64,000 nucleotides of DNA from Amyelois transitella. Taxonomy: Eukaryota; Arthropoda; Insecta; Lepidoptera; Pyralidae. The stretch covers positions 3,244,001-3,308,000 of the forward strand of contig NC_083526.1 in the NCBI RefSeq assembly GCF_032362555.1, read 5' to 3'. The position numbers and the translations under genes were made by a program. The notes beneath the pieces were generated by a model, which saw only the letters and a list, made by a program, of their open reading frames with translations, did not search any database and was not told where the DNA came from. Shown here in pieces: positions 606-63,461 of this stretch; the first letter of the stretch is position 1, and every line of letters begins with the position of its first letter.

Positions 606-3600
606 CTTAATGTTACTCTCAATAGCGATCATATCAATGGGCCTGTCGATCACGTTATAGTACTCCGGGTACAGCTTCTTGCTGGGCTTCTCCATGAAGA
701 GCAACATGGGCTGGCGGCCGTCAGCGCACGTGAACTCCACCATCTGCTTGGAGATGTAGTGCAGCTTCTTCTTCAAAGGAAGTGAGGATTTGGGTACAGA
801 CGGTGAGGGGGCGGGCGAAGCTGTGGCCGGTATGGGGTTAACGCGGGGACGACCTGGTAGAAAAAACAAATGTCTTTTTTGGTTATCTGAAGTGAGAAAA
901 AGAGATAATGCTCTGTCAACGTGCGTGAGTGTGAGGGCTAGATACAACAACAACTGGCACCTTCTATTTATAAACATAAAATCCCCGTAATCTTCAATTT
1001 CCGCGGGAATTTTGGTAAGGCAATTACACACCAAGACAACTTAAAGAATCTACATGGCTTTAAAATCTCTTAACTCGGGGTATGGGCTGAGCTATGCATG
1101 CGACCAATAGTGAAGTGATTTGATAAAAGTGCACTGCTGTAAATTATAAGCCGACTGTTTTATAGTATAGTAATAAAATAGCCGAAAACCAGACTGACTA
1201 CTTAAAAGCGTTGGGTTATCTTCACTTTTAGTAATTATCGCCAACTGAATATTTTAATGCATTAAATAAATTGAAATTAATTCACAATCAATATGGCGAG
1301 CTCTGCTAAATTTCGAGACAAGGTATAATTAGGTTATAATCACCTCTGGGCCTAGGCGTCTTCTCATTCTGACTCTTCACTGTGGAAAGACTCTCATCAT
1401 CACTTGATGAGCTCTGGATAATGTCCAGCAATTCTTGAACCCGTTGTTGCATCAACCTATACATATAATGTAATATAGGTATAAATACATTTATGTTGTT
1501 AGAAAGTATGTGTAAAATAAAATGTTTTTTTATGAAGAATGCAAATTGCAGTAATTTTGTTAATGATACACGAGCTTTGCTGGATTGTCATTTATGTGAA
1601 TAATAAAATTTAAAAGGTTTAAAAGCAAATTTTTGTAAAGAGAACTAACTGAGCCACTATGTGTAATCATTAACTTTAATCTTTTATTTACTGTTTTAAA
1701 ATTGTGTGCAATAAACTGACTTCGAGCTTTATTTGGTATTATGATATATTATTCTAGTAGCAACACTTACATACATTGTGTTGGTGTCCAGGGAGAAACG
1801 TTTTGTTGAGGCACATCCACATCACTAGTGATGTGGATGCGGATGGGAAGAGAGTTTTCCTCATGATCTTTGTACACATTTCATGCAAATTCGTCAGTCT
1901 AAGAAAGTCTTGACTGACAGTTAGGTTAAGTGTAAGACAAATTGCCTCACCTCTGCAGTTTGACAGCGTCTTTATAAAGCCTGGAGGAGGGCACGTTGTA
2001 CTGCTTGGCGTTCTCAAACATGATGTTCATATCGCCCGCCACCTCGGAGAGGGTCCCGTAGGCGCCGCGGCGGATCTTATTCCTGATCTGGTTGAGGGAC
2101 ACCGGGTTCTTTATCTCCTTGTAATAGTCCGGGTAAGCGCGACGGGACGGTAGCTTCGCGAATGGATCGGCCATTGGGGTTCCTGGGGGATAATAAGAAG
2201 TGTAAACCCATGATGAGCCACTTTCTTTAGACAAACTTTAGAAAGTACAATATTGCGCGAGGCTTCGCTCCCGTGGAAATTTCCATGATTTTTATACATA
2301 CATACATATTATATAAACTCAAGCTTCTTTCTTGGAGAGACTTCATCTTCCTTACACCTTGTGACACCTACATACTTTTTTCACTCCATCTACATTACAC
2401 TATCACTCTATTAGTGCGAGCTCATTTCCAATTTGACCATTTTTGTGTATTCTAGGTCTCCCTTTCTTATGTTCTGATTCACACTCTCTTTGTGCATTTT
2501 CTAAGTCAATTGAATTTCTGTCTTCTTTAATTTCTGGACTTCAACTTCAACAAAAGCATCCACTTACCATTAGCTCCCAAATGATTTCTGACAGTCTCAT
2601 ATAATTTCCACAGCGGAGAGTTCTCGTATTCAATCTTGTCCTCGTCGCTTTCACCGCCACTGTCTTCTGAGTGCTACAAACAAACATACACTCATAATAA
2701 GACATTATTAAAACAATTAATATGATTGTTGAATAAAAACGTTAAGAAAATTACTGTAGGACAGAACCTTGTTAATGGTGGCTTTGAAAATAATGGTGAA
2801 GCGTACGTGTGGCGGTAAAGACAAGTTTAAAAAATTTTTTTGTAACCATGCGCATCACAAGCCTTCAAATATAGTAAATTTTTGCCTTTTTCTCTGTGAT
2901 AGTAAGAAAGTCAGTGAAATTAATAAACTTTTTTATTTTTAATATAGTACAGAAGAAGTGTATGTGTGAAGTGATGTGAAGAAAACATGAAGAGGCCCTT
3001 TGGTACCTTTTGTTCTAATGAGTCTGTCTGTCCCTTGATGAACCAAAGGTTTTATTATATAGATAAACCATTTTAAAATTTTGTAGAGTGATAAAAAAAA
3101 CCTACCGGAAAAGGTTTTTCTGGAAAATCCCACGGAAGAGAATTATGTAGACTATATATAATAATCTTGTACATAATTTGTTGTCATTGTCTGAGACTGC
3201 TTCTCTCAGTGGACTGACCTTGACATCGGCGTCGTCGCAATCCGGGGGCTCCATGATGGCCAGCTCCTTGCTGCTGGGCACGGGCCCCACTCGGGAACTC
3301 CTCTTGCTGCGGATCCTCTCCGAGGTCTTGGCTGGCCCGCTGCGACCGTGCTGGTCTATTTCTTGCTTGCGGACCTGGATCACCTGGTGATAACATAGTT
3401 TGATTATTAATCTTCTTCTTCCACCTGTCGAGAGACCCGTTCACATCCCCACCACTTGTGAGAGGAGCTCAGAGTGCGCCTTTGAACATTGAATTGGGAG
3501 AGACAGGTTTTTACATAAAACAACTCCCATCTGAACTCGCAACCCATTTTGGTAATAAATATGTACCTATATCAAATAAATAACAGAACGTGAAGGGAAA

Positions 3601-6600
3601 TTTTACGACAAGGAAGTACAACCAGATATTTCCACATTTTCCCTTTCCGGAAAACTGTGTATGTTCTGCACTAACCTTTTTCAACATCTTAGCATCCTTA
3701 TAAATCTGACTGCCTGGCTCATTGAAAGCACATGCGTTTCTGACCATCAGTTGAAGATCTCTCTCCAGTTCTGTCAGGCTGACATACTCCCCACCCTGTA
3801 TCTTGGCTGCGATGGTCTTCAGATCTATGGGGTTATCTATCACGCTGAAATACTCTGGGTAACGGCGTTTGGAGGGGAGGAATTGGAATGCCGGGTAGAG
3901 CGGTCGCCCGTCTGCGTTTGCTGTCATTACCTAGAAACGAAGAAATATTTTTAAGTGAATTTAGGGTATAGTCTCTCTCTGTTTTATACATACATACCAT
4001 CACGCTAACTTAGCTAAGGCCACACGAAAGAGAAGTCATTAACATGTGTACTTGCTGCAACCGCCTTCTTACACGCGAGACCTTTCAGTGATATAAAATT
4101 CATATTCAACTAATAAATACTTACAGCACTGAACAGTTCCTCATAGATGTCTTCTTCGTTGTTGGTTGATGTCTCCGATATATCTTCGGCCACGTCAGAT
4201 CGGCGGCTTGAAGACCCATTGCGAGATAGCTTTGAAGTTTTTATCTCCTCGCCTAGAATAAATAAATAAATATGTACAAGGCAAATTGTTGAGTGAGTGA
4301 GTTAGTTCGAAATTTGTGATACGAGATACTAACACAACAAATTGTTTGTTTACGGCAATTTATTGATAGGCGTCTTGGCACTGTGGTAGTATTACTGTCT
4401 GTGAAGTTATAATGAAAAAAAAAACTTTTCTTATTTGCTTTAGTTTTGGATGTTTATCTATATGTATAAGTGTTATTATAAATATTACTTTATTGAATTA
4501 AAATTTTATTAAACAGTCTTGAACTTTACTTTTACTTTGGGACAAAAATTAAAGGCCAGCCATATAGAAGCTTACTCCAACAAATACCCTTTACTAGATC
4601 TATCAAAAGTTTTTGGGTTCATACTTTACAATTAATAAAATTTTTGAGCAAATAAAACATTTTTTTTTTCAAATAGGTATGTTGATTAACCCATTCCTAA
4701 AACAAGTTCTTACCATTTTCCAAAGCCAGTTTAGTCTGTTTGTACAGCTTCCAGAGGTCAATGGCATCCTTGTATTCCACTGAGTCAGGTTTGTAGAACG
4801 CCTTTGCATTGTTAACAAGTAGTTCTATGTCCGCAGACAGCTCTTCTATGTCTTCATATGTGTCAGTTTTTAGCTTTTGTTGAACCTGTGAACAATATTG
4901 TGAATCAACAATCAAAATCTTTTCTAGTAAGCTAGAGACAAGAGTTAAATAGAGCAGGATAAAAAAAAAATACAACCTATAGTATCTTCACTCTGCTAGC
5001 AATAAAAAAGATATGTCAATAGGTGCATTCTCAGTTATTTTTTTAATGTGATACCAATTGATGCAAGAATAGAATAGAATAGATTTATTTTCAAAATTGG
5101 ATACAAGGTATCACTTATTGACGTCACATAACTTAAATCTAATTATAACTACTACCGCTTCCAAAGTCCATGTGTAGAAGAAGCGGCGGAACAAACTACA
5201 CTGCAGCATTTGCATCGGACGTCAATCTATACTAATATTATAAAGCTGAAGAGTTTGTTTTGTTTGTTTGTTTGTTTAAACGCGCTAATCTCAGAAACTA
5301 CTAAACCGATTTGAATAATTCTTTCACTGTTAGATAGTCTATTTATCGAGGAAGGCTATAGGCTACATTTTATCCCGGATTTCCTACGGGAAACGTCAAC
5401 AATGCAGGTGAAAGTTGAATGAGTCGGTCATCTGCGAGCTTTCCACGCGAACGCTGCGCAAACCAACAAAGATATAGTAAAACAATGTACTAAAGATGTG
5501 AAGTACTCATTTTTTGTCACAAAAAAGTCCGCGAGAGCATATATCTATCTCTTAAGGTTTACTTACAATAACCACTTTTATGTTCATTTTTTAAGATTAT
5601 TTTTTCATTATAAACATATGTTATTTTGAAACCAATTTTCTTTAATTCAGTATTAATCCTTATCCAAATAAATATGTTTATTACTTTCGGCTTTTCATGT
5701 AGACTAAAATTGCCATTTACAGTATATAAATCAGACAAATAGGTTTTGAGATATAGTTGTTATAAGCAATTTGCAGCGAAACATTTAATACGGCGAACCA
5801 GCGTTCTTTCCAATACGCGTGACTGCCTGCAAAAATAAATATGATGCCCAAAATAACTATTCCACGCGGACGAAGTCGCGGGCACAGCTAGTTTACAAAT
5901 ATAGATCCCTTAAATCTAAATTGTGGATGAATGCACATTGCAAGTGATTATTTACTAGTGACAAGAAAGACAACCTAAGTGAGGATGATATTAAGTGTAT
6001 CTTCATTATTGTGCCTGCATGAGTGACAATAATTCTCTACGTCATAATATGTTTCTTTCCAACTTAAAAAAATGTACCAATCAGTGTAAAACCAGGTATA
6101 GAATATTTAATCTCGATAGAGAAACATAAAATAATAAAATAGGGAAAAGTCGGGCATTGTGCATTTTTTATTTTTTAATATCCTTAATATGTAGTAGGTA
6201 CTAAAAATTTGTTATGTACAATAAAGTTTTTACAAACAAATCAGCAAACTAAGTACTAAATTGACAACACTTACTCGTAACAAGTCAATAGGCTGAGTGA
6301 CGACTTCGTAGTACTGGGGCTCCTGCCGCCTTTTAGGAGCTCTTATGAAAGAGTCACAGAGCAAAGTACCATCTTCTTTTTTATGTGACCTTATTGTGTC
6401 ATACAACTGCTGGCAAATTTCACCCTGAGAACATTAATAAATATGTAAAAATCTGGATATTCCCTGATTGGGATAAGTCCGCCATTGTACACATTTTTCT
6501 TAATCCAATTACTGTTTTGTAATTTGTTATATTATTTTATATGTGCAATAAAGAGTTTATAAACAAACAAATAACTAGGAATAATAATAATATGAAGCAA

Positions 6601-23950: not shown

Positions 23951-25119
23951 TGCATGTTTTCATAGTTTTAATAGTTAAGTATTATACTATTATTAGGTAT
24001 ACTCTGTCTACCCCACAAGGTATATAGACGTGACCATATGTATGTATTATACTAAAATTGCCTTAACAAAAAAATTAGAATAAATCTGCATCCATACCAA
24101 AATCGTGACCTTGACAAAATCGGAAAGCACAACAGTTGCAAACCCATTTAGACCGAGTTCCGACTCGAATCACAGCCCCGCCTACCCTCCGTTCAGTAAT
24201 TAACTATCATTTATCTTTGCGCCTCTGTCAAAATTGTGTCGTTCGTTCGAAAACATTTTAAAATGTTGCCATAATTAGGACCACTTGATTAATTTGACCA
24301 GAGCGAGTTCGAACGTCAAATTTGCCTTTCAAGGTGTGAATTAGACGATTTTTCTCGTTGATAAAGGCTGACGGATGTGAAACGTACTTTTGTGAGTTAA
24401 TTATCCATGGTTATCTGTTAAATTTATTTAATTACATGCTGTTGTAGGGTCTATAGTAGATGGATTTGCGGTGGACGTTGGACGTTGTTAGTGATTAATG
24501 ATTTAACCGATTCATTGCGGATGGCACGCCTGCCGTGCCATTACTTTCTTTTACGTGTGGCGTAGGGCGCGGGAGCCGTGTCATTTTTAAATCGATGATA
24601 ACTCCTTCAAATTAGGTTTTAGGGAGATCTACCCAGAACAAAATTGTCGCTATTTTTCATCTAAATCAAGGTCGTAGCCTTCGTTTCTGGTAATTGTATG
24701 ATTTTATTAAAAGCAGGTGTAACCAACCTTTTCAGATGCTTAAAATTGCAATTTAATAATACCTAGGCTACATGACTCAATTTTGTTTTGTTTAAATATG
24801 GAAACACCTCTAAAAATAAGCCCACTAGTAAAAGAAATACCATGATTACTGAAGAACTCTTTGACATAAAGTCACACTTTTTTGGCGAGTCCAAAACGTT
24901 CCATAGAGAAGGCTACCTAGGTGTGACGTCACTTCTAAATAATATGTATTTCGTAGGACACGTGCGTGAACTTTATATGATAACTATGTAAAATATTGTG
25001 TTTATGGTATAGGCCTCTTAATAAAAGTTGCTTTGATTTTAATAAGTTACCTTATGATAATACAATTTTTTGCTTTTTCTATAGTTTTAAAATGGACTTG
25101 CCCAACTAACTTCAAATAA
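23951..25119. other. Intergenic with a short family A piece and a shared 17-mer
   Basis: A family A head fragment is at about 24001-24040 (CTCTGTCTACCCCACAAGG). TTAACCGATTCATTGCG at 24503-24519 recurs inverted at 31501-31517. GC-rich GGCACGCCTGCCGTGCC at 24520-24540 is palindromic. No gene seen. Confidence 0.35.
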
Positions 25120-25297
25120 TCTTTAATATAAAAATGAATCGCTAAATGTGTTGGTAAGCACTGTGGTAAGCGCATAACTCAAGAACGCCTGGACCAATTA
25201 GGCCAATTCTTTTTTTTTAATATTCTTCGTAGCTCAAGGATGGTTTTTACGGCGAGAAAATGTATGTACCTCGGGCGAAGCCGGGGCGAGCAGCTAG
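25120..25297 (+). mobile_element. Short Helitron-like element, about 178 bp
   Basis: It starts A|TCTTTAATATAAAAATGAATC and ends GAGCAGCTAG|T. A GC-rich subterminal CGGGCGAAGCCGGGGCGAG lies just before the CTAG. The same GCGAAGCCGGGGCG word recurs in a decayed copy near 44055. Confidence 0.6.
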
Positions 25298-26011
25298 TAG
25301 TTACAAAATTAAAAGTGTGATTATTAGTTTCGGTTAGGTAAAAATTTATGTATTATGAAACATTATTTCCAAAACTCTACTCCTGTCATGTAGCCTATTA
25401 GTTATGGAAAAATACCACGTGCGGTTCAATATGGCTAATATGAGTCTTATTGCACACGACACTTCATGTCCTAAACAATGGAGGATCCCTGCCGGAGAGA
25501 TAACAAATTGCATGTCCCTACGAAGTACCAACAATGTAAAATGACCAGTACGTTTTGTACAATATGGTCCATTTTTGCGTGGACAGATAAGAAAAAGGTC
25601 CTAAAAAATTCGAAGGTGAATGTTTTCTCATCTTTTGTGAATTAGTTCTGTTTTGCTATCCTTGGTGATCAGATCTGCGTGCGTATCGATGACATTGAGA
25701 TCGTATATCTGGGCTTTCGACATTTGTGTTGTGAGGACTGTGTTACTGTGCTCTGATCTTCGTAAAAAAACGACTGCTGCTTGTATAACTGGACTCCGTG
25801 ATCTGCCAATGTGACGACTCAGCCTGTGTACATAAATCTCTGCTTGCCGTAAACTTCATGTAAGTAATTTTTTCATGCCTAATCTGTAGTGTATAGTTAA
25901 AAATAGTATATTAATAAAGAAATTGTATTCTAGTAGATACCGTATTAGGTACTTATTGGGTAAGTTACTCTTATTGGTACTCTTAACTCCTATAAGAGCA
26001 CACTATAAGGT
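25298..26011. other. Region upstream of the piggyBac element, nothing recognised
   Basis: No gene or named repeat. The terminal inverted repeats and flanking TTAA of the piggyBac element should lie here or just to the right, but I could not identify a convincing matching pair. Confidence 0.35.
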
Positions 26012-26055
26012 AGGTACTCTTTTGAACAGAGTAAACTTTGTTCAAAAGAGTACCT
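26012..26055. repeat. Perfect 17-bp inverted repeat with 10-bp loop
   Basis: AGGTACTCTTTTGAACA (26012-26028) and its exact complement (26039-26055) flank AGAGTAAACT. It lies about 470 bp upstream of the transposase start and may belong to the transposon's left end. Confidence 0.7.
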
Positions 26056-26105
26056 ATCTATGTATCCAATGGAGGGATCCTGTTTGTTCTCATGATTAAA
26101 TTTAT

Positions 26106-26308
26106 CATAATATGGTTTGTCATAAGGCCTTTCTCATAATTTTTCTAACATAATAATTGATTCACATAAAGTTTATTGCTATAATGCTTGTGTAGGCATA
26201 ATGTTAGTTTATAATAATGAGTTTTGCTATAAAATAGTATATCATAATGGGTTTGTCATAACAGTTATAGTCATAATCATAGTTTATTATAATTTATTTA
26301 GTTCATAA
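26106..26308 (+). repeat. Degenerate tandem array of about 14 CATAA-rich units, about 15-bp period
   Basis: CATAA or TATAA words start at 26106, 26121, 26135, 26149, 26164, ~26180, 26197, ~26211, ~26228, 26243, 26257, 26272, ~26287 and 26304, i.e. every 14-18 bp. Units look like CATAATGGGTTTGT. It lies just upstream of the piggyBac transposase gene and may be subterminal transposase-binding repeats. Confidence 0.6.
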
Positions 26309-26528
26309 ATTCTATTCTAACTCTATTTTAAACCCTTATAAGTGGCTAAAATTTGAATAAGTTTTTTCATAAGATTTTCTAACGAGAAAACGAGAGAATT
26401 TTGTTGATGGTTTCCTGAACCTGAAAATGTAAGACATTAACATTTCAATAAGTATTTTCACTTTAAATTACTTAAAAACACTAGTATAGGTTAAGGTTCT
26501 TCGAACTCTTCGGAGCCGCCATCCGCCA

Positions 26529-26870
26529 TGGATCCTTTGAATCCAAGTATTAATCTGCCAAGTTCGCCAAAACCTGGACCATCATCGGGTATAAATCCTT
26601 TGGAAGCTTGCAGTTCGCCGCAATTCGGTACATCAACTTCTCTGGATCCTTTGAATCCGTATATGATTCTTCCAAGTTCACCAACACCTGGACCATCATC
26701 AGCTATAGATCCTTTGGAAGCTTGCAGTTCGCCGCAATTCGGTACATCAACTTCTCTGGATCCTTTGAATCCGTATATGATTCTTCCAAGTTCACCAACA
26801 CCTGGACCATCATCCGCTATAGACCCTTTGGAAGCTCGGAGTTCGCCGCAATTCGGTACACCAACCGCAT
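26529..26870 (+). repeat. Three 114-bp tandem repeats in the transposase N-terminus
   Basis: The unit starts at TGGATCCTTTGAATCC at 26529, 26643 and 26757, an exact 114-bp (38-codon) period. It encodes DPLNP...LPSSP.PGPSS..(I/N)PLEA.SSPQFGT. Copies 2 and 3 are nearly identical; copy 1 is more diverged. The sequence after the insertion resumes with LDPL, so a fourth partial unit is cut by the Harbinger element. Confidence 0.9.
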
Positions 26871-26872
26871 TA

Positions 26873-27513
26873 GGCGATTATCACACGGCACCGCGCACCG
26901 CCGCGGAGGGCGGTGGCGGTAACGCGGATTTCGCAGCGGTGCACCGCGCGGTAAGGCGGTTTACGCGCCTGTACGCGCGGATGGATTTAACGCGGTTTTG
27001 ACCAGTTTGATTGCAGACGCTGGCAAGAATGGACGCTGAAGTGGTGGCAGCAATCTGGCTTTTATGGCGCAGAAAGAAAAAAATAAGAAGATACTGGGTT
27101 CATCCATTTTTACGAAGCAGAACTCTAAATGGGTCATTCATGTTATTCTATAAAAGTTTGAGAAAATACGAAGATAATTTTTTTAATTATACGCGAATGT
27201 CCACTTCTTCATTTGATAGCAGAGCGACTTTGAATCTCTGAAATAAACTTTTCGACATCGAAATCCATTTTTAAATTGCGACACGTCTTGCTTCCACGAT
27301 GTTCCGCGCGGTTATGCGGTGCCACGTGTGTGAGGTGCCGCCCCTCCGCGCTGCCGTCCGCGCGGAGAGGCGGTGGCGGCGAGAGCACCGCTCGACCGCG
27401 CGGTCGGGCGGTGAACATGTGTTTAGTATCAACGGATTTAGTAGAGGCTTATGCGACATGAGATCCGCTTCACCGCCTGCCGCGGCGGTGCGCGGTGCCG
27501 TGTGATAATCGCC
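26873..27513 (+). mobile_element. PIF/Harbinger deletion derivative, 641 bp, inserted in the piggyBac gene
   Basis: The ends are inverted repeats starting GGCGATTATCACACGGCACC; 34 bp match perfectly and similarity continues for about 20 more. The flanks are TTA (26870-26872) and TTA (27514-27516), the 3-bp duplication typical of PIF/Harbinger. Internally, a short frame (about 27032-27241) contains RRYWVHPFL and FNYTRMSTSSFD, the N-terminal signature of Harbinger nucleases, and stops before the catalytic core. The subterminal regions are very CpG-rich. It is non-autonomous. Confidence 0.85.
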
Positions 27514-29208
27514 TTAGATCCCTTAACCGTAGAATTAGGAAGAATGATGTCTCCACAAGAAACTATGCCATTATACGATATGGAAGGCTTAGATTTTATT
27601 GGTGACGAAGAACTATACGGGATTTTGACCGGCAATAACGACGACACATTGGATGAACTTAATAGTGCAGATCCGAACGAAGACACAAATATTAGCAATT
27701 CTTACGAAAATCAACAGGCCGAAGAGGAAGAAGATACTTCTCCAGAAGAGACGACCGGGTGGTATCCGGGTAATCCTACAAATATGTCCAATATAATCTT
27801 TACAGGGACAAGTGGTATGTTGCCGCCACATGATGTAAACGTCAAAAGTCCTTTGGACTATTTCTTTTTATTCTTTAATTCTCACTTTATAAATTTAATT
27901 CTGGAGTGTACTAATAAGTACGGTAACAAACTAAAAGCAACAGCGACTACTCCACGCGCTCGTTTTCGCAAGTGGACTGATGTAAGTGTAGCCGAATTCA
28001 AAACTTTTCTCGGTCTACTGTTGCTGATGGGGACAATTAAGCTAAATAGACTAACAGACTATTGGTCAACTCATTATTTGTTTCGTCTATGTGTACGTCA
28101 ATTTATGTCGAGAGATAGATTTTTTTTAATTTTAAGAGCTTTAAACGTGCAAAATAATGAGAGAACCCAAAGTATATTTAAAATAAAGTCGTTAATTGAT
28201 TTGTTCAATGACACGATTGATTCGGTATATTATCCATTGAGAGAATTAACTATTGATGAATCTCTTATTTTATGGAAAGGAAGACTTCGTTTTCGTCAAT
28301 ATATTACAGGTAAAGCCCATAGATACGGTATCAAGTTGTACATTTTAGCCGACGCTAACGGAATTATTTTAAAAATTCACGTGTACGCAGGGTCTCAAGA
28401 TACACAAGTAGGCGGTAAAAATCATATTAAAAAAGTTGTACATCTTCTTATGAAAAAATATATTGAAAAGGGACATTCCTTATATTTAGATAACTTTTAT
28501 ACCAGCGTGGGGTTATCTGAGGAGTTATTGTGTAAAAATACATACGTAACTGGTACCTTAAGAGCAAACCGTATTGGTAATCCAACGGTAGTAAAAAATA
28601 TAAAATTAAAACCAGGAGAATCGTGTATAGTACACAACTGGAAAAAAATTGTAGTAACCAAATGACAAGATAAACGGGAGATATTGTTCATAAGTTCGGA
28701 ACACACAAGTCAATATAAAGCGACTACTAGTCGCCGTGTACGCACCGTCAAATACAAACCGGCCGTACAAATAAAATATAATAAATACATGCGGGCAATA
28801 GACCGACATGATCAGATGTTAAGTTATTATTGCTGTGAGCATAAGACCCTGCGCTGGTACAAAAAAGTTATTATACATATAATACAAATATGTCTAGTAA
28901 ATGGCTTTTTGCTTTTTAACGCAAGAAACAAAGGAAATGAAACAACTTTGTACAAATTTAGAATGGATATAATGGAGAAATTACTGCCAATGCCAAATAG
29001 AACAGAACTTTCTCGGTCTCTATCAGAAGGAAAAATACATTTACCTGCCAACTTGCCAAAGAAAAATGGCAATACCCTAAGAAAAAGATGCAGAGTGTGT
29101 TATTTGAAAACCAAAAAAAGAGTTTCTGTTTTATTTGGCTGTCCTGATTGCCCCGGATTTCCGGGTCTATGTATTGATAAATGTTTTAGAGAATTTCACA
29201 AATATTAG

Positions 29209-29983
29209 CATACTGTATTGTGATTGTTAAAAATTACAAATTGTGTTATAGAAGATTTTTTAGTTTTTTATAATACTTAACTTGATTGGCAAGAGGCTAC
29301 TCACTATAATTTGATTTTGCTGATTTTCAAATTTAAATGTTTAATTAAAAAAAAATACGATCAGTCAGGTACTTATTTTAAAAATACTACTGACAGTACA
29401 TACTGGTTGTCTACGGACTTCTGAACTATTTTTGTAATCACATGTTCAGTTTACTTTTATAAGAAATGGTCAATAATAATAGAGCAAAATTTGTGAAACA
29501 CCATTTTTTTTTTGTAAAGGATATTGATTAAAAACTGAATAGGTACTGATTAAAAAAAAACTTCTTAATCATAAAAATCAATCTGGCACTTTACTTAAAA
29601 TATCAGTCTCCAGTCTCCTTTAAATGATATACAATCAGTCTTATAATTTAAGAACAATGTCAGTAGAAAAGATTAAGATGATCCGATTTGCATTGAGCGG
29701 GATGGCGGGATAGTGTTAAAAATATTGACCATAACTCAATTGTATACGGTTTCATTTAGGTTACTGCAAAAATGTCTGTTACTGAACGAAAACTACATTG
29801 ATCTATGTATTTCAGTTCGCCAAATGCAAAAATACTTGGAAATATTATTGTGTACTTAAATTTCCCGCTCAAATTGATCGAACCGGCATATGTAACTTTT
29901 TTAAATATATGGTTTTCATTTAAAACCTAGTTTCATTAAAAACTCTTTTCTAATTTTTTTTATATTGTACCTACTTACTAAAA
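29209..29983. other. Region after the transposase, no gene seen
   Basis: It is AT-rich and should include the right end of the piggyBac element. Short inverted words TTGAGCGGGA (about 29694) and TCCCGCTCAA (about 29864) were noted but are too short to define an end. Confidence 0.35.
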
Positions 29984-30399
29984 TTATTTTCTTATCATAT
30001 CCAAAATTTGCTGCATTTTTATATTTCTGTCATATGGCTTGAAGCGCAGCAATTCATTTGAAACCAACTGGCCAAAATATTTACATCCATGGATGTCCAA
30101 GATAGTTGGGACCTGATCCTCATCTTCCTTATTTTTTTCTATATCCTTTGCACTGCCCGCCATTGTATTTTCTGTGCAAATTGCTCTATCCACCATTACT
30201 TTTTCTGTACATGTTGCACTATGTACCATATTTTTTTCTGGGCACATAAAAATATCCTTTGTTTTTATATTTTGTGTAAATTCGAAGTTGTCCCTGTGTA
30301 GTAAATACTTTTGCGAATTTGGCTCGAAAATTTCGTCATCAGATTCGCACTGAGTTTCAGTTTCTGTCTCGGGAATGTACTTTCTTTTTCGCCGTAATT
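29984..30399 (-). CDS. Orphan terminal exon of a MADF/BESS-type protein
   Basis: An acceptor TTGTTTAAG at about 30400 opens a frame of 137 residues to the stop at 29984, entered with two bases of a split codon. It starts LRRKRKYIPETETETQ, is acidic in the middle, then carries an 11-residue tandem repeat (CPEKNMVHSAT, CTEKVMVDRAI, CTENTMAGSAK; 30244-30146). It ends with a BESS-like helix pair (KYFGQLVSNELLRF ... KMQQILDMIRK). MADF-BESS proteins are DNA-binding regulators, and Harbinger elements carry a related protein. No MADF-coding exon is visible upstream to 33 kb, so this may be a captured or decayed piece. Family call is moderate. Confidence 0.5.
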
Positions 30400-30479
30400 C
30401 TTAAACAATAATAGGCAATAGGTAATTAGAGTATAATGGCAATATTAAGCAAATTAGGATTTTGAATGACTGAGATTGA

Positions 30480-30775
30480 AGGCACCCGTCTATTTACTCT
30501 TTTTCTTAAAATGTAAAAATCTTATTCCATAGTGCCCTAGTAAACGACTCATAGTATTTTTGGTACTTACATATAAGTTTGATAATTTTTCCTTTGGTAA
30601 ATTCAGAGAAAAATTGATTACCGCCGAAAGTGGCCACTTTTGGCGGTAATCAATTTCCCTCGGCGGTTTTGAAAGGAAAAAATATGAAACTGCGAAAAAT
30701 ACTATGTGTTATTTACTATGACACTATGGGATTAGATTTTTAAAATATGATACGGAATTTATAGACGAGTGGCGC
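30480..30775. repeat. Foldback element, about 300 bp, with a 46-bp central palindrome
   Basis: The left arm (CCGTCTATTTACTC ... AAAATCTTATTCCATAGTG ... CATAGTATTTTTGG) is matched by the complement of the right arm (CACTATGGGATTAGATTTTT ... GACGAGTGGCGCTAG). The arms meet at 30611-30656, where 23-bp arms are complementary with one mismatch and no loop. Confidence 0.7.
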
Positions 30776-30824
30776 TAGTTTCGCTGCACTAGTCGTCTTA
30801 ATGACTTAATGTATCATATGACAA

Positions 30825-31012
30825 CCATACTAGTAGTATTATAAATGCGGAAGTTATCATGCTTGTAATTTTGTGAATTTGGATGTTTGTTCTCAATCAC
30901 GCTGAAACGGCTGAACTGATTTGGATGAAATTCTGAACGGGAATAGTACAATCAACTTAAGCTTAGACAATGTATAAATTTGAACGCGGGCGAATTGCGG
31001 GAAAAAAGCTAG
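30825..31012 (+). mobile_element. Helitron-like element, about 188 bp
   Basis: CATACTAGTAGTATTATAAA and then GCGGAAG match the usual 5' segment (TACTAATATTATAAA...GCGAAAG). The end is GCTAG|T. Internal text CTGAACTGATTTGGATGAAA is typical of these elements. The first base of the expected TC has decayed. Confidence 0.5.
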
Positions 31013-33300
31013 TATTTTTAATAAATATATACCTATTAAGTACTAAATCAAACTTGACAGTTTATCATTACGTAGTGTAAATAAGTTGAAATTTCTTGTG
31101 AGCAAAACCAAAACAATAATTACAGAACTAACTTAAAACCTCATTTAGTCAAGCCCACATTCCTATAAAACTATTCAAACCATTAGGACTTAAAAATAAG
31201 TTCAAAAGGTTTTGCACACCTTCATTAGAAATGTCACTTACCTTCCATTTTCAAAAATACACTTGTTATGCCACTTATAATCACTTGAAACAACGTTTCT
31301 GTATGTTCGCGTTAGATTTCGAATGTCAACTAAAAGTATGTAAGCCTAAAACATGTAAAAACTGGTTGAAATACTGTATTCTTTTCCACATGGCTGAAGA
31401 CACAGGAGGCGTGTCATGTAATCGTATGGCGCTTGACCCGGCAGCCGTGTCACATAGTTTTTGTTGAACGCCATTAGTAAAAGTTTGCAAAATTAGGCAT
31501 CGCAATGAATCGGTTAAGTATGATTTCTCGTGGTTATTTCGGTTAGGTACTATAAATTTATAACTTGTTTTGCTTTCAAGGTTTGGCGTTTATCTTTAAC
31601 TTTAAATTAAGTACCACAAGAACTATTTCTACGAAAGTCATTTCACCTTTTTGAAGTGTCTTTTCAGGTTTCTTTGCATTCAGAAATTTCAGAAAGAAAT
31701 GTTGCCAATTTTAAATTAACAAATTCTCAAATTCAGTATTCGTACCTATAGTTAATATCAAAATAGTACCTAATTTTCGTATACCTTAGCCAGTGTGGTC
31801 AAACATAGATTATATAAAACATTTTAAAGTGGACGAAATTAACATAAACAACACATTCATATTTTTACTACTTGAACAAGGGTTACCCAAATTATCTTGC
31901 ACAATGGGCATTTGGGAAGTAAACCCATAATTTGGTTTTAACCCTCTCCCAATTGGCTTTGTCTAAGTATTGTTAGCTACACATAAGATAATGCTTGACC
32001 AGAAATATAATATAGGTAGGTACTAAGTACCTATACCTAAGTACGTAGCATAAAATAACACATAACCTAACGCCAGTCTTGTTTAGTATGGTTCTAGTTA
32101 TCACACTATAGGTGCATCAATGTGAAATCAACATACCTAACATTATTCAATGTGATATAGGTATCTACTTATTCAACTAATTGGTGTTGGTAGGTATATG
32201 AAATGAAACGCAGAACTAGGTACTCTTTTACTTCTGCTATAGTTCTGGTCAACTGTATCAATAGGTATTAATAATTAATGTTTATTTACTATTCGTTTCT
32301 GTTGAGTTTTTACTTCAATCATGAGATTTTTTATGCCTGCTTAGCACTTATTGAAACTGAGGCCAAAGATTTTCTCTTCTTTTCTTCATTCTTTATTTTA
32401 AAGTAATTTTTCTTTATTTTAAATAAGTATTAGGACCACCAGATTTTGTTTTTTTTTCTGATATAACGCTGTTTGTATACACGTCAATATTTGCGTCACT
32501 ACAAATTCCGGTTGGCTTCTGCATGTTCACTAACCTTTATGACACCTTTTCCGTAGGTAGATCGATGATTCATATGTTGAGTGTCCATAAAAAATAAAAT
32601 AAAGTGTTTTAAAAATCAATAAGTACCATTAAAATTGTACATTAGCCGAGATCTTTTTACAATGCAACATTTTGCGCTGAAGTGGTTAACCGAAAGATTT
32701 TATGAGTTAACAATAAACGCTAATGGTCATTGCAATGCAATATTAATCTGAAATGAACACAATGTGCCTGGGAAAATGTTTGATGCACATGAATTTGGGA
32801 TTACGACAGTTTATAGAACGGTATTTAATATAAGTACCTATTAGATAAATTTACCACCATTTTTGAGTTCACACAAAATTACTAGATATACCTAAGTATA
32901 ATAAATTGCAGTGAATATCAGAAGATAAGCCAAGCCATATAAGAAATAAAAAATATGTAAATACAATTTCATAGTTTAGGTAAACTAAGGATTTTCACGC
33001 CGACTTCATTTATTTTCTTGTCTAAGAAAATAAATTGAGTTTCGACTGTCGAAGTTAATTTAGTATGAAAACAGATTTATACTTTTCAGTAAAACAAATT
33101 TTTTGTACTTTTAACAAATTTTTCTAAATATGATAGTCAAACCTTACTGTAACGTTAATAATAAAGTTAAATAAGTTAACAATAAGAAAATTCATACGAA
33201 GATTTATGAAGAATAGTATTTTAATAAATGTTATTTCAAATAAGTAAGTACATATTATAAGTGAAAAATTATATAAAGTTCAGCAAATACCTATCACAAA
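31013..33300. other. Intergenic, no gene seen
   Basis: The 17-mer CGCAATGAATCGGTTAA at 31501-31517 is an inverted match to 24503-24519. The plus frame at 31231-31467 has no known motif. The remainder is AT-rich. Confidence 0.35.
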
Positions 33301-47308: not shown

Positions 47309-47700
47309 TCATTTGGACGCATTCACGACAAGATTTGTAGCAGCCTCCTCGCTCGCGCCTATGCTCATAGCTTTCTTCTTCAATATACCCAAATCAGTCA
47401 CGTTTTCTAGAAAACTCTTGTGCGCAGAAAGTACCTTTGCACTTTCAACGTCTTTCTTCAACTCCTCCATATCCCGCTTCAGTTTTGCTCGTCTGTTTTG
47501 GAACCACGTTATGACTTGGGCGTTCGAGAGCCCTAATGAGCTTGCGATTTCGTCTCTGTCGGCTGGAGAGAGATATTTTTGGTAAAGAAACCGTTTCTCT
47601 AGTTCAAAGATTTGGTGGTTCGTAAATGCTGTTCTGGATTTTCGCTTCTTCTTCGGCTGTGGCCTGTTGTTGAAGAGGTTCAGGTGATTCGACTGGCCGT
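47309..47700 (-). CDS. lbx: Ladybird/LBX homeobox gene, terminal exon with complete homeodomain
   Basis: The exon opens after acceptor TTGTTACAG at 47701, entering mid-codon, and ends at TGA 47309-47311. After [18 protein letters not shown] comes a full 60-residue homeodomain: [39 protein letters not shown] and [14 protein letters not shown], with Thr47, Gln50 and Asn51 of the recognition helix. The [13 protein letters not shown] and [13 protein letters not shown] segments are diagnostic of the ladybird (LBX) family rather than other NK-cluster genes. It is a nuclear transcription factor for muscle, heart and neural identity in flies. The N-terminal exon(s) with the eh1 repressor motif are not visible up to base 64000. 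Fly early/late paralogs cannot be told apart from this exon. Confidence 0.93.
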
Positions 47701-47702
47701 CT

Positions 47703-48616
47703 GTAACAAGAGAGAAATGCAAAGTTAATCATGATACTAACCAATCAATGGGAGTATTGACTTCAAAGTTATAACAGCTTAGCCACTGGTATGGTGTTAA
47801 GTTTTCTCAATGTGACGAACTATAGTTACTTAAGCAATAACTTTTTTGACTCAATACAATAGATAAAGTACACTTAAAAATGATCAATTCTAAAAAGAGT
47901 TGTTAACTAACAGTCATCTCATCAATGATTATGACAATTTGTGTCTTAATGACATTAATAAAGATTTATCAATCTGATCGCTTTGAATTTTTTTTATCAT
48001 ATACGACTATTCAATGCTTTCAAGTGTCATCACGCTACAGCTCCATCGCAATCTGGTTTCTCCATTTTATAATTATAAACCTATACAGGTTTATAGATAA
48101 AGCAAACGCGTTTCCTCGTTATCAGGTACTAAAACATCATTCGAGTCTATGGCACCATAATAAAGAGCCCGCAGCGCTAAAATGTTACTCGGCTGTCGTA
48201 AAACATACAATAAAAACACACCCAGGAATCGTTACTTTTTAACGAGCACGCAATCACATACGGGCTGGCTTAAAACATTTTAGAGGCAAAACAATCAGCG
48301 CTGTTGTGGGTAGGCGTCAAAACTAAATAAATGAACGCGATAGCACAAGTTATAGTTGCTACAGGTACTTTCCATCAGTCACTTCTCAAGGACACTAAAA
48401 TGGATTATTAGTATCTTGACCCTAAATCCTGTTTGTAAATGGGTTTGTTACGTTACTATAATTTATCACAAGGCATAGAAATTACCATTTTGTGAGACAT
48501 GCAAATCTTTACAAAGTGTAACGTTATTTTAGGTTAATAAATAATTAGGGTAACGTATCCTTATTTGTTGTTTTAAGATACCGTAACTACTCGTAAATTA
48601 ATCGTAAATTTATTAA
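47703..48616. other. Intron or upstream flank of the ladybird gene
   Basis: This is sequence immediately 5' (on the minus strand) of the homeobox exon. No second exon was found. The words are less repeat-like than elsewhere. Confidence 0.4.
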
Positions 48617-60100: not shown

Positions 60101-63100
60101 TCAAATTCAAATTCAAAATTTTTATTCATTATTATAGGATATTATTATATCGCTTAATAATTGTCGTATGGTTTAACAACTTGGTTGACGTCAAATAAAT
60201 TACTTAAAAACTAAGTTTACTGCCGCTTCCAAGGCGTCAGTGCAGAAGAAGCGGTAACAAACTGCACTGCAGCATTTTCATCAACAACGTCAACTTCACA
60301 AAATTAAATTATACTTAGAATAGAATGTGGACGGGAGAATACATTGTTCACGGGAGATTTATATATTTATGAGATTTAATATTGAAAAAAGAAAAATATA
60401 TATATATATATTATGGATTGCCAATTTTAAAAAGATTTATGTACAGAGTGTACTGAAATTTTGATTTAAGTTCAAATTAAACTACAATTAATTACGAGGT
60501 TCCTGTGCCAAGCTCGAGCCAGATGTTTTTATCATTAAGGTAATCATCAGTCCTATAATAAGCCTTCCCACAAAGTACTTTCTTTACATACTCTTTGAAT
60601 TTTCGGTTGGGCATATCAAGAACAGACTCCGGCAACCTATTATAAAATCGTATACAGTTCCCCATAAATGATTTACTGACTTTGCTAAGCCTATGAAACG
60701 GCATGACTAATTTATGTTTATTACGTAAATTTCTATCAGTTGTGGCACTAACTTTTTGAAAAAAAGAGGTATTTTTCCTAACATACATTATAAGATCAAA
60801 AATGTACTGGGACGCTACTGTAGGTATGTTTATTTTCTTAAAGAGTTGTCTTAACGAGTCTCTTGGTCCTAAGCCGTAAATTGCGCGAACGGCCCTTTTC
60901 TGAATTATAAAAATAGTTTGTATATCAGCCGCGCTACCCCATAAAAGTAAACCATAAGATAACAAGCTATGAAAATAGCTAAAATAAACAAGCCTAGCTG
61001 TAGCTACATCTGTCAATTGTCGGATCCTCCTAACAGCATAAGCGGCAGAGCTAAGTCTATTGGATAGTTTAGAAATATGAGCACCCCACTGTAGCTTTGC
61101 ATCAATTATAATTCCTAAAAACTTTGTATTTTCAACAAATTCTAATTTCTGGCCTTCCAGTGTTATGTCAGTATTGGCCTGCCTTACGTTTGGAAGGGTA
61201 AATTTAATGCATTGGGTCTTATTAGCATTTAAAAGAAGATTGTTGGTTGAGAACCAGATAGATATGGCCGACAGTATATTATTAACCGAACTTACATTTT
61301 CGCTATGGCGATCTAATTTAAATATTAAAGAAGTGTCATCGGCAAACAGCACTATACCCGCCTGTTTTTCCACCATAAAAGGCAGGTCATTGACATATAC
61401 CAAGAAGAGGAATGGTCCTAAAATTGAGCCCTGAGGAACACCCATTGAGACGCTTGATCCGCTTGACTTTACTCCATTAATATCTACAGTTTGAAGCCTA
61501 TCAGTCAAATAGGATGCCATTAGTTTAGTTGATTTGTGGTCAAACCCATATTGACGAAGTTTACGCAAAAGTGTCTGATGATCTACGCAATCAAATGCTT
61601 TAGAGAGATCGCAAAAGACTCCAACTGAATCCTGTGAACTCTCCCACGCGTCATAGATTTGAGTAACAAGTGCTACTCCCGCATCAGTGGTGGACTTCCC
61701 GGCAGTGAACCCATATTGTTGGGAATGGAAAATGTTATTGATTTTAAAATATTGTTGCATTTGATTAAGCATCATCTTCTCAAACACCTTGCTCAAAACT
61801 GGCAATATAGAAATAGGTCTATAATTGCCAAGGACTGTTTTCTCCCCTTTTTTGAATAGAGGTATTAATTTGCTACATTTCATTAAATTTGGAAAAATAC
61901 CCTCATCAATACATTCATTAAATATAAAAGCTAGATCAGATGCAATAATATCTATGATTTGACTTATGATACTAACAGACATACCCCAATGGTCTTCAGA
62001 CTTTTTCAAATTAAGTTGTTTGAACGCCTTTAATATATTATCAGAGTTAACATATTTAAATTTAAAGACAGATTTGATGGGAGTTGTGTTATTATTAAGT
62101 AGGGTTTCAGCGCGCAATGGACAAGAGTCAACGTCAGAAGTTAGCTCCACAGGGATTTTTGCAAAGAAATTATCAAAAGCATTTACTATGTCCTGAGTTT
62201 TAGAAATACTTTTGTTACCGGATGATATTTGTTTAATACTGTCTCTATCTTTGATTTTGCCAGATTCTTTATTAATAATGTTCCATGTTTCTTTAATTTT
62301 ATTTGGTGCGTTGTTTATTTTACTACTTATGTGCAAAGACTTGGCTTGCCTGCAAACTTTTTTAAATAATTTTGAATAATTTTTGACATATTCTACAAAA
62401 CTGGGGTCAAAATTGTATTGTTTCTGGGCATATAAGTCATATAACTTATTCCTACTCTTGTGAATACCTAATGTAGCCCATTCACTGAACTGTAATCTAT
62501 TACGAATATTGACTTGTTTCTGCTTGAACCTTTTTGAGTATTCAGCAGAAATCATATCAAATAAATTGTTATAATGTTCATTAGGATTATTTCCAGAATA
62601 TGTTAAAGTATTTAATTGATTTGCAATGTTTATTTTAAATTTTCTTATGTTTTTGGAAGAAAGAGGTCTACACATAATTTTATCATTATTTAAATTGTTT
62701 AAGGACTCTTTCTCAAAGGTAACATATTGACCGGTGTGATCCGAGGGCAATTTGTGAATAATTGATTTCCGTATATAAAGATTATTGCAAAAAAAATTAT
62801 CCAGACACTTGGCAGATGTAGATGTTATTCGGGTTGGTTCGAAAAAAACATACTCTAAATTATAAGATTTAAACAAATTAATAAATTGTATACTAACGGT
62901 TGATTTAACTAAAATGTCAATGTTAAAATCACCACAAATAATTAATTTTTTATTACATTTTGAGGTAACATGTAACACTTGATCCATTATTTTTAAAAAT
63001 TGTTTAAATTCACTGTTTGGGGGACTGTACACACAAACAATTATATGATGATCTAGCTCGGCACAGGTCACTTCGGCACACCGCTCAACCGAAAGTCTGG

Positions 63101-63461
63101 TTATGTCTGTTCGCTCTTTACAGCGAAGACCGCATTTGATAAATATCATAGACCCACCTCTAATTGCAGACTTTCTGTTTAAGCAGCTCACAATATTATA
63201 ATTGTTTAGGCTGAACATCATCTCCCCCTCCATGAGCCAATGCTCAGTCAAACATAAAATGTCCACATTTAATTCTTCTAAAACTAGTTGTACTTCTAAT
63301 TCTTTGCCGGGAAGACCTTGTATATTTTGATGGATATATTCAAACCAATCAAAAGAAATTTGAAATAACCTATATAAATTGGCGCTATGTTGAACAGGAA
63401 CAAATTTGTGCTTATATCTCTTAATAGTTTTACGACGTTTTAATGTACTGAAACGTTTAAA
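60101..63461 (-). mobile_element. Nearly full-length non-LTR retrotransposon (Jockey/CR1 group)
   Basis: It consists of a 3' UTR (60101-60491) and one uninterrupted ORF2. The minus-strand end is TTTGAATTTGAATTTGAATT, a short tandem 3' tail rather than poly(A). The 3' UTR contains the CCGCTTC/GAAGCGG stem also found in the fragment at 5068. The 5' limit is uncertain: the frame is open back to a TAG at 63462-63464, and no ORF1 was identified. The copy may be 5'-truncated just upstream of the endonuclease. Confidence 0.8.
60492..63461 (-). CDS. LINE ORF2: apurinic-type endonuclease and reverse transcriptase
   Basis: The frame is open from 63461 to the stop at 60492, about 990 codons. No in-frame ATG precedes the endonuclease; a GTG at 63264-63266 is mid-domain, so the true start is outside or lost. 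The N-terminal endonuclease has HQNIQGLPGKE, CLTEHW, VYSPP, GDFNID and SDHTG. The reverse transcriptase follows with LIPLFKKGEKTVLGNYRPIS, DLSKAFDCVDH, GVPQGSILGPFLF and the catalytic LFADDTSL, then a thumb region with KFLGIIID and LLSYGLLLWG. The C-terminus has FYNRLPESV. It nicks target DNA and copies its own RNA at the nick. With no stops, insertion is recent. Confidence 0.9.
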   Translation of the reverse strand, partial: FKRFSTLKRRKTIKRYKHKFVPVQHSANLYRLFQISFDWFEYIHQNIQGLPGKELEVQLVLEELNVDILCLTEHWLMEGEMMFSLNNYNIVSCLNRKSAIRGGSMIFIKCGLRCKERTDITRLSVERCAEVTCAELDHHIIVCVYSPPNSEFKQFLKIMDQVLHVTSKCNKKLIICGDFNIDILVKSTVSIQFINLFKSYNLEYVFFEPTRITSTSAKCLDNFFCNNLYIRKSIIHKLPSDHTGQYVTFEKESLNNLNNDKIMCRPLSSKNIRKFKINIANQLNTLTYSGNNPNEHYNNLFDMISAEYSKRFKQKQVNIRNRLQFSEWATLGIHKSRNKLYDLYAQKQYNFDPSFVEYVKNYSKLFKKVCRQAKSLHISSKINNAPNKIKETWNIINKESGKIKDRDSIKQISSGNKSISKTQDIVNAFDNFFAKIPVELTSDVDSCPLRAETLLNNNTTPIKSVFKFKYVNSDNILKAFKQLNLKKSEDHWGMSVSIISQIIDIIASDLAFIFNECIDEGIFPNLMKCSKLIPLFKKGEKTVLGNYRPISILPVLSKVFEKMMLNQMQQYFKINNIFHSQQYGFTAGKSTTDAGVALVTQIYDAWESSQDSVGVFCDLSKAFDCVDHQTLLRKLRQYGFDHKSTKLMASYLTDRLQTVDINGVKSSGSSVSMGVPQGSILGPFLFLVYVNDLPFMVEKQAGIVLFADDTSLIFKLDRHSENVSSVNNILSAISIWFSTNNLLLNANKTQCIKFTLPNVRQANTDITLEGQKLEFVENTKFLGIIIDAKLQWGAHISKLSNRLSSAAYAVRRIRQLTDVATARLVYFSYFHSLLSYGLLLWGSAADIQTIFIIQKRAVRAIYGLGPRDSLRQLFKKINIPTVASQYIFDLIMYVRKNTSFFQKVSATTDRNLRNKHKLVMPFHRLSKVSKSFMGNCIRFYNRLPESVLDMPNRKFKEYVKKVLCGKAYYRTDDYLNDKNIWLELGTGTS

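Follow-up and report, generated by a model that had tools for sequence, protein, structure and literature searches.

A 641-bp Harbinger-type element interrupts a piggyBac transposase gene in Amyelois transitella

Amyelois transitella is a lepidopteran insect in the family Pyralidae. The 64-kb stretch of its genome considered here (contig NC_083526.1, positions 3,244,001 to 3,308,000; hereafter 'the window') contains a complete piggyBac transposon whose transposase gene is interrupted by a second, 641-bp element. This insert is almost certainly a non-autonomous PIF/Harbinger transposon, derived from an element of ~3.0 kb and presumably mobilised in trans, that entered a young piggyBac transposase gene. 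Nested insertion is in itself ordinary, and what makes this instance a clean case is that a young transposon interrupts the only coding copy found in the 327-Mb host assembly of another young transposon, a copy that also carries a TGA. The surprising part appears to be the parent Harbinger family, with its interlocked antisense genes and its clusters that lean to one strand. Contigs of the assembly are given below by short labels (the window lies on C22), and features of the window are on the plus strand unless stated otherwise.

Structure of the insert

The 641-bp element occupies 26873..27513 and is bounded by terminal inverted repeats (26873..26906 and, on the minus strand, 27480..27513) that are perfect over 34 nt and 95% identical over 44 nt. 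It is flanked by a target site duplication of TTA (26870..26872 and 27514..27516). A sequence-only reading of the window had described this arrangement, and it proved to be exact to the base; that reading had also claimed that the codon phase runs straight through the site once the insert is removed, and the joined flanks do indeed read ...SSPQFGTPTA-LDPLTVELGRMMSPQ..., in a frame that is then open to a TGA at 28663-28665. When the first 21 nt of the ends were sought with up to three mismatches, exactly two sites were found in the 64-kb window, compared with none in 100 shuffles. The ends of the insert are also distinct in composition, with a G+C content of 64-66% against 34% in the remainder of the piggyBac element.

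The interior of the insert retains the beginnings of two Harbinger genes. The first is the 5' part of transposase exon 1 (27029..27217, 63 aa, WVHP...FNYTRMS), which matches the transposase of a 3,026-bp relative on C32 at 98% (tblastn, 1.9e-35), and the second, on the minus strand, comprises the first 18 codons of a MADF protein (27215..27268; tblastn 100%, 3e-7). Both are truncated by the same internal deletion, the junction of which lies at 27215..27217 and consists of a 3-nt overlap, GAT, joining positions 343-345 to positions 2728-2730 of the 3,026-bp copy. In addition, the ends of the insert contain four CCGCGCGG palindromes (26944..26951, with further ones starting at 27304, 27358 and 27396), and these are all four of those in the whole window. 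They are candidate binding sites and may be recognised by the MADF protein, because the Myb-like protein of zebrafish Harbinger3_DR offers an analogy: it binds a subterminal motif (PMC9710019).

The host piggyBac element

The piggyBac element that hosts the insert spans 24507..31513 (7,007 bp, or 6,363 bp without the insert and one TTA), has 13-bp ends and is flanked by TTAA on the left (24503..24506) and on the right (31514..31517). Its transposase gene is now found in three parts. The N-terminal part (26528..26872) contains three 114-bp tandem repeats and has no Pfam match of its own; the insertion point coincides with the start of a fourth such repeat (38 aa), where the joined frame reads ...GTPTA-LDPLTVELGRMM... 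The catalytic part (27517..28662) matches Pfam DDE_Tnp_1_7 (3.6e-64), and its best match among solved structures is the piggyBat transposase (chain 9c0f_C, 7.4e-37). It ends at an in-frame TGA (28663..28665), an independent second lesion that splits a single catalytic domain in two, and beyond which the C-terminal part (28666..29208) continues with the rest of DDE_Tnp_1_7 (1.3e-11) and a zinc finger (zf-Tnp_2, 2.1e-9). The TTAA duplication, the short inverted ends, DDE_Tnp_1_7 and the C-terminal zinc finger place the element in the piggyBac class. It has the domain, the zinc finger and the TTAA target in common with piggyBat (PDB 9c0f) and the wider superfamily, and differs from that superfamily in its size (6.4 kb without the insert), its three N-terminal 38-aa tandem repeats and a coding copy that is broken twice.

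When the coding region (27517-29300) was compared with the assembly, a single match was found, namely the window itself; the sole coding copy found is therefore one disrupted by both the insert and the TGA. The right end, by contrast with the coding region, recurs: the scoring of 40 of 100 candidates gave a minimum of nine further copies at 99-100% identity (C18, C12, C17, C13, three on C9, C29 and C26). These nine are internal-deletion derivatives flanked by TTAA, with lengths of 2,936, 2,939, 2,406, 1,274 (three times), 2,238, 942 and 1,192 bp, and they differ from the window copy by two substitutions in about 16.5 kb aligned, small gaps being uncounted. Because the deletion copies are nearly identical, the piggyBac family is judged very young, and the same near-identity bounds the age of the Harbinger insertion. 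The sequence-only reading had dated the insert as younger than the piggyBac copy. This certainly holds in so far as the insert is younger than the piggyBac sequence that it interrupts, and is less secure for the order of insertion and landing at this site, since the coding region had a single match in the assembly.

It could also be argued that the piggyBac gene remains expressed across the insert, which would then act as an intron or provide an alternative first exon. As this would need, an ATG in the right Harbinger end (27451..27453) shares the reading frame of the piggyBac codons that follow, with no intervening stop. Translation from the piggyBac start, however, stops within the insert after 157 aa, and the TGA at 28663 would in either case cut the following frame short of both the zinc finger and the end of the catalytic domain. 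This explanation is very improbable, and an intron-like role was rejected.

A separate 138-aa open frame lies inside the piggyBac element on the minus strand (29984-30400), and its tail (KYFGQLVSNELL...) resembles by eye a frame from a Harbinger cluster that was read as MADF exon 2. Neither this frame nor the one it resembles matches Pfam; it is possibly a captured gene.

The parent Harbinger element

A search for a full-length Harbinger element with the same ends found a 3,026-bp copy on C32 (L031:1514-4539), which is flanked by TTA/TTA and whose outer 22 nt differ from the two ends of the 641-bp element by 0 and 1 mismatch. Its transposase gene runs from an ATG at 1670 to 1953 (donor AG/GTAAGT), followed by an intron to 3200 (acceptor TTTCAG) and exon 2 at 3201-4092, and the spliced reading frame encodes 391 aa without a stop and matches DDE_Tnp_4 (5.4e-33). 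The opposite strand encodes a MADF-BESS protein from 4294, with an intron from 4122 (donor G/GTAAGT; acceptor TTACAG) and a second exon from 3173 downward; the MADF match (3.4e-14) spans the splice junction and the BESS match (1.8e-7) follows one frameshift. The WVHP and YTRMS motifs, which together with the 3-bp duplication had led the sequence-only reading to propose PIF/Harbinger, fall in exon 1 of this transposase, and the DDE_Tnp_4, MADF and BESS domains of the relative bear that assignment out. The class is further marked by the TWA form of the duplication and by the presence of a second gene of the Myb/SANT/MADF type. PIF/Harbinger elements of the animal type have the same features, as described in the available parts of two accounts (PMC9710019, PMC4482050): a DDE_Tnp_4 transposase of about 390 aa, a MADF protein, a TWA duplication and both genes in one element.

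Since a 3,026-bp copy with the same ends encodes both a PIF/Harbinger transposase and a MADF-BESS protein, the 641 bp are a deletion derivative of such a transposon. The 641-bp type corresponds to positions 1-345 joined to 2728-3026 of the 3,026-bp copy (3-nt overlap), and a second, 776-bp type to positions 1-431 joined to 2677-3026 (4-nt overlap). The deletion of the 641-bp type contains that of the 776-bp type, so it is possible that the shorter form arose from the longer by stepwise shortening.

Short, non-autonomous, with inverted ends, TTA or TAA duplications and a burst of near-identical copies, the 641-bp element is reminiscent of mPing. As is usual for miniature inverted-repeat transposable elements (MITEs), it is short, derives from a longer element by internal deletion, has no intact gene and is found at several sites. 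MITEs are also expected to number hundreds of copies or more, and here there are five whole copies and one interrupted copy (lower bounds); it is for this reason described as a non-autonomous derivative and not as a typical MITE. Set against the Tourist-like or PIF-derived MITEs such as mPing, which are the comparison class (PMC2836001), it differs in being low-copy and in keeping the opening codons of the two parental genes.

Relatives were also sought outside this genome. Searches of viral contigs with the 70-aa remnant of Harbinger, the catalytic part of piggyBac and an alignment of Harbinger transposases gave no confirmed relative, and neither did a search of genome contigs with that alignment. 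A 16-nt end pattern gave two matches in viral contigs, which were taken as chance.

Copies at other sites

All 15 candidates from the genome search with the whole 641-bp element were scored, and copy counts from it are lower bounds. Whole copies at 99-100% identity over the full length are present on five contigs (the window on C22, and C15, C21, C17 and C1). Each of the five is flanked by a matching TTA/TTA or TAA/TAA duplication (TTA/TTA in the window), and the bases beside their ends are different. Together the five carry nine private substitutions relative to the majority and none in common, a star-like pattern as would be expected of a recent burst from one source. Copies of 776-778 bp were found four times (twice on C9, and on C18 and C5), with duplications, in that order, of TTC/TTC, TAA/TAA, TTA/TTA and TGA/TAA. 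The tally of duplications covered 13 loci, from which two that belong to other families (L040 and L041) were excluded; clean TTA or TAA duplications were found in 8 of the remaining 11 copies over all size classes. The ends thus recur in ten further copies outside the window, and none of the 20 flanks of these ten matches piggyBac (blastn, E up to 1e-3), which means that the insert is not carried about as an intron-like piece of piggyBac genes. Neither of the two outcomes that the sequence-only reading had named as contradicting it was therefore obtained. Because the copies occupy different sites, the 641-bp element appears to have been mobile.

Points that weigh against this account

A number of observations weigh against the account given above. 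Taken alone, the 70-aa transposase remnant in the window has no match in Pfam (E up to 1) or the PDB (E up to 10), and because of this its family identity is obtained only through the full-length relative. The C32 element is the only near-full-length copy found and its MADF gene is frameshifted, and no intact source of the MADF protein for the exact 641-bp family was found in the genome. Three copies depart from the TWA rule or have mismatched duplications: one of the two on C9 (L033, TTC/TTC), that on C5 (L036, TGA/TAA), and a sixth copy of the 641-bp type on C11 (L032, TAA/TTA), which has the characteristic junction but differing outer flanks and a 1.78-kb element inserted within it. Dispersed repeats are common to the flanks of several copies. 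Moreover, the 776-bp-type copies on C18 (L035) and C5 (L036) adjoin the same 17-nt stretch at their left ends, with differing duplications; the pair would reflect either insertion at nearly the same point of one dispersed repeat or shared descent, and because of the common 17-nt stretch independent insertion of these two is not proved. Lastly, a search of the assembly did not turn up the piggyBac coding region with the site empty.

The element that interrupts the C11 copy (L032:1719-3500) is itself of note, having GGCG(A/C)TACAT ends and lying at a TTAA.

The shared repeats and the C18/C5 pair are what would speak for the copies being a segmental duplication or a satellite and not transposed units. 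The five whole 641-bp copies, on the other hand, are spread over separate contigs, each with its own neighbouring bases and a matched TTA or TAA pair, and the flanks of the ten copies outside the window are free of piggyBac matches (0/20). The comparison of flanks led to the rejection of segmental duplication for these five copies, and the probability left to this explanation is negligible.

The missing empty site bears on a different question, namely whether the Harbinger element entered an ancestral piggyBac before the latter landed at this site, so that both moved as a composite. There is no empty site to establish which came first: a coding-region copy lacking the insert was not found in the assembly, and in each of the nine other piggyBac copies the deletion extends across the point of insertion. 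Against a composite, a second such copy was not found, and the piggyBac copies are so alike that little time is left for the insert to enter, the composite to move and the other coding copies to be lost. A composite is therefore rather unlikely, and it is insertion into the piggyBac gene after it had landed here that is preferred.

A probable course of events

The preferred sequence of events begins with a full-length Harbinger of ~3.0 kb that lost its middle in one or two steps while retaining its ends and the opening codons of its two genes. An element like the C32 copy would then have supplied transposase in trans, presumably together with the MADF partner, and this transposase would have cut out the 641-bp element and pasted it at TWA sites; in rice and zebrafish elements the transposase and the second protein are both reported to be needed for movement (PMC9710019). 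One such copy inserted at a leucine codon, TTA, where the fourth repeat of the young piggyBac transposase gene begins, probably after that piggyBac had landed at its present site; the TTA was duplicated and the host gene left interrupted.

Interlocked transposase and MADF genes

In the C32 element, predicted transposase exons 1 and 2 on one strand alternate with predicted MADF exons 2 and 1 on the other, such that the intron of each gene holds a coding exon of the other gene on the opposite strand. The two second exons are separated by only 27 nt, with their acceptors back-to-back. A family on C24 (L042:360-3505), with 70% transposase identity, has the same exon order and both genes open: its transposase exons lie at 599-889 and about 2111-2993 on the plus strand and its MADF exons at 3239-3075 and about 2075-1324 on the minus strand, with GT-AG borders. 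A third, dispersed family on C1 (L067:1300-4041) likewise has all four exons by similarity and GT-AG borders.

Three further families from cluster DNA on C30 and C20 (L065, L066) show the same alternation, with one exon weaker in each. In two of these, MADF exon 2 is assigned by position, having no MADF or BESS match and a BLAST hit to itself; in the third, MADF exon 1 was identified by eye and MADF exon 2 by sub-cutoff matches only (MADF 5.5e-4, BESS 8e-4). Intron positions in two of the cluster families differ from those of C32 in that transposase exon 1 is longer, and in one of them the whole MADF domain lies in exon 1. Overall, four exons are recognised by similarity in three of the six families and at least three exons in all six, these families not being a random draw. 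That this exon order recurs although the transposases of the families share only about 35-70% identity implies that the layout has been kept by selection or by long descent.

This is where the elements described here differ from the animal type of PIF/Harbinger, the layout being unmentioned in the available parts of PMC9710019, PMC4482050 and PMC9179366. Nor was a description of interlocked Harbinger genes found in the available parts of PMC11893794 and PMC3689595 or in the titles and abstracts searched, a search outside which the older animal PIF/Harbinger papers mostly fall.

Harbinger clusters

The distribution of Harbinger transposases was surveyed with 180 aa of the C32 transposase exon 2 as the query; the best 150 of 360 candidates were scored, and these are not a random sample. 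All but one of the 150 (149/150) lack an internal stop. With a cluster defined as at least five matches separated by gaps of at most 150 kb, 78 of the 150 scored matches fall in seven clusters that total about 1.34 Mb, or 0.4% of the genome, and that hold many different Harbinger families, mostly with open transposase exons.

Five of the seven clusters lean to one strand (p 0.001-0.07 each), and outside clusters the matches are 37 plus and 35 minus. The leaning clusters are those on C7 (2.77-3.11 Mb, 13/14 plus, p 0.002), C30 (1.82-1.88 Mb, 14/15 minus, p 0.001), C20 (7.26-7.34 Mb, 7/7 minus, p 0.016), C23 (4.79-4.93 Mb, 8/9 plus, p 0.04) and again C20 (1.84-2.01 Mb, 7/8 plus, p 0.07), and the other two are on C27 (2.88-3.19 Mb, 10/17 plus, p 0.63) and C19 (1.79-2.02 Mb, 3/8 plus, p 0.73). 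The p values are two-sided, uncorrected across the seven tests and treat matches as independent, a condition that duplicated blocks could violate.

Clusters in one direction resemble unistrand PIWI-interacting RNA (piRNA) loci. It may be proposed, tentatively and with more doubt than confidence, that the interlocked layout is obligatory in the Harbinger families of this genome and that their dedicated clusters behave like such loci. Each pre-mRNA would contain the antisense of a coding exon of the other gene, because the exons alternate on opposite strands, and within this proposal antisense pairing before splicing could couple, or self-limit, the expression of both proteins. The layout thereby suggests a way, open to testing, in which an element might keep its two proteins in balance, and with the one-strand clusters it could be asked whether a superfamily of DNA transposons becomes subject to piRNA-like traps.

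The C30 cluster also provides a parallel to the nesting in the window. A 3.07-kb Harbinger (L065:4273-7339) lies within a second Harbinger, whose transposase exon it interrupts, and the corresponding empty site is present in the C20 cluster (L066:538-3873), where 2,661 bp align at 100% and 681 bp at 99.9% with a 6-nt overlap at the junction. This is the same kind of event as the 641-bp insertion, here with an empty site.

Other features of the window

Three further features of the window lie on the minus strand. A 989-aa open frame (60492-63461) with endonuclease and reverse transcriptase domains looks like an intact long interspersed nuclear element. Two host genes are represented by a homeodomain exon at 47309-47728, which we take to be ladybird-like, and by bromodomain exons at 552-1040 and 3511-3930, which are presumably polybromo-like.

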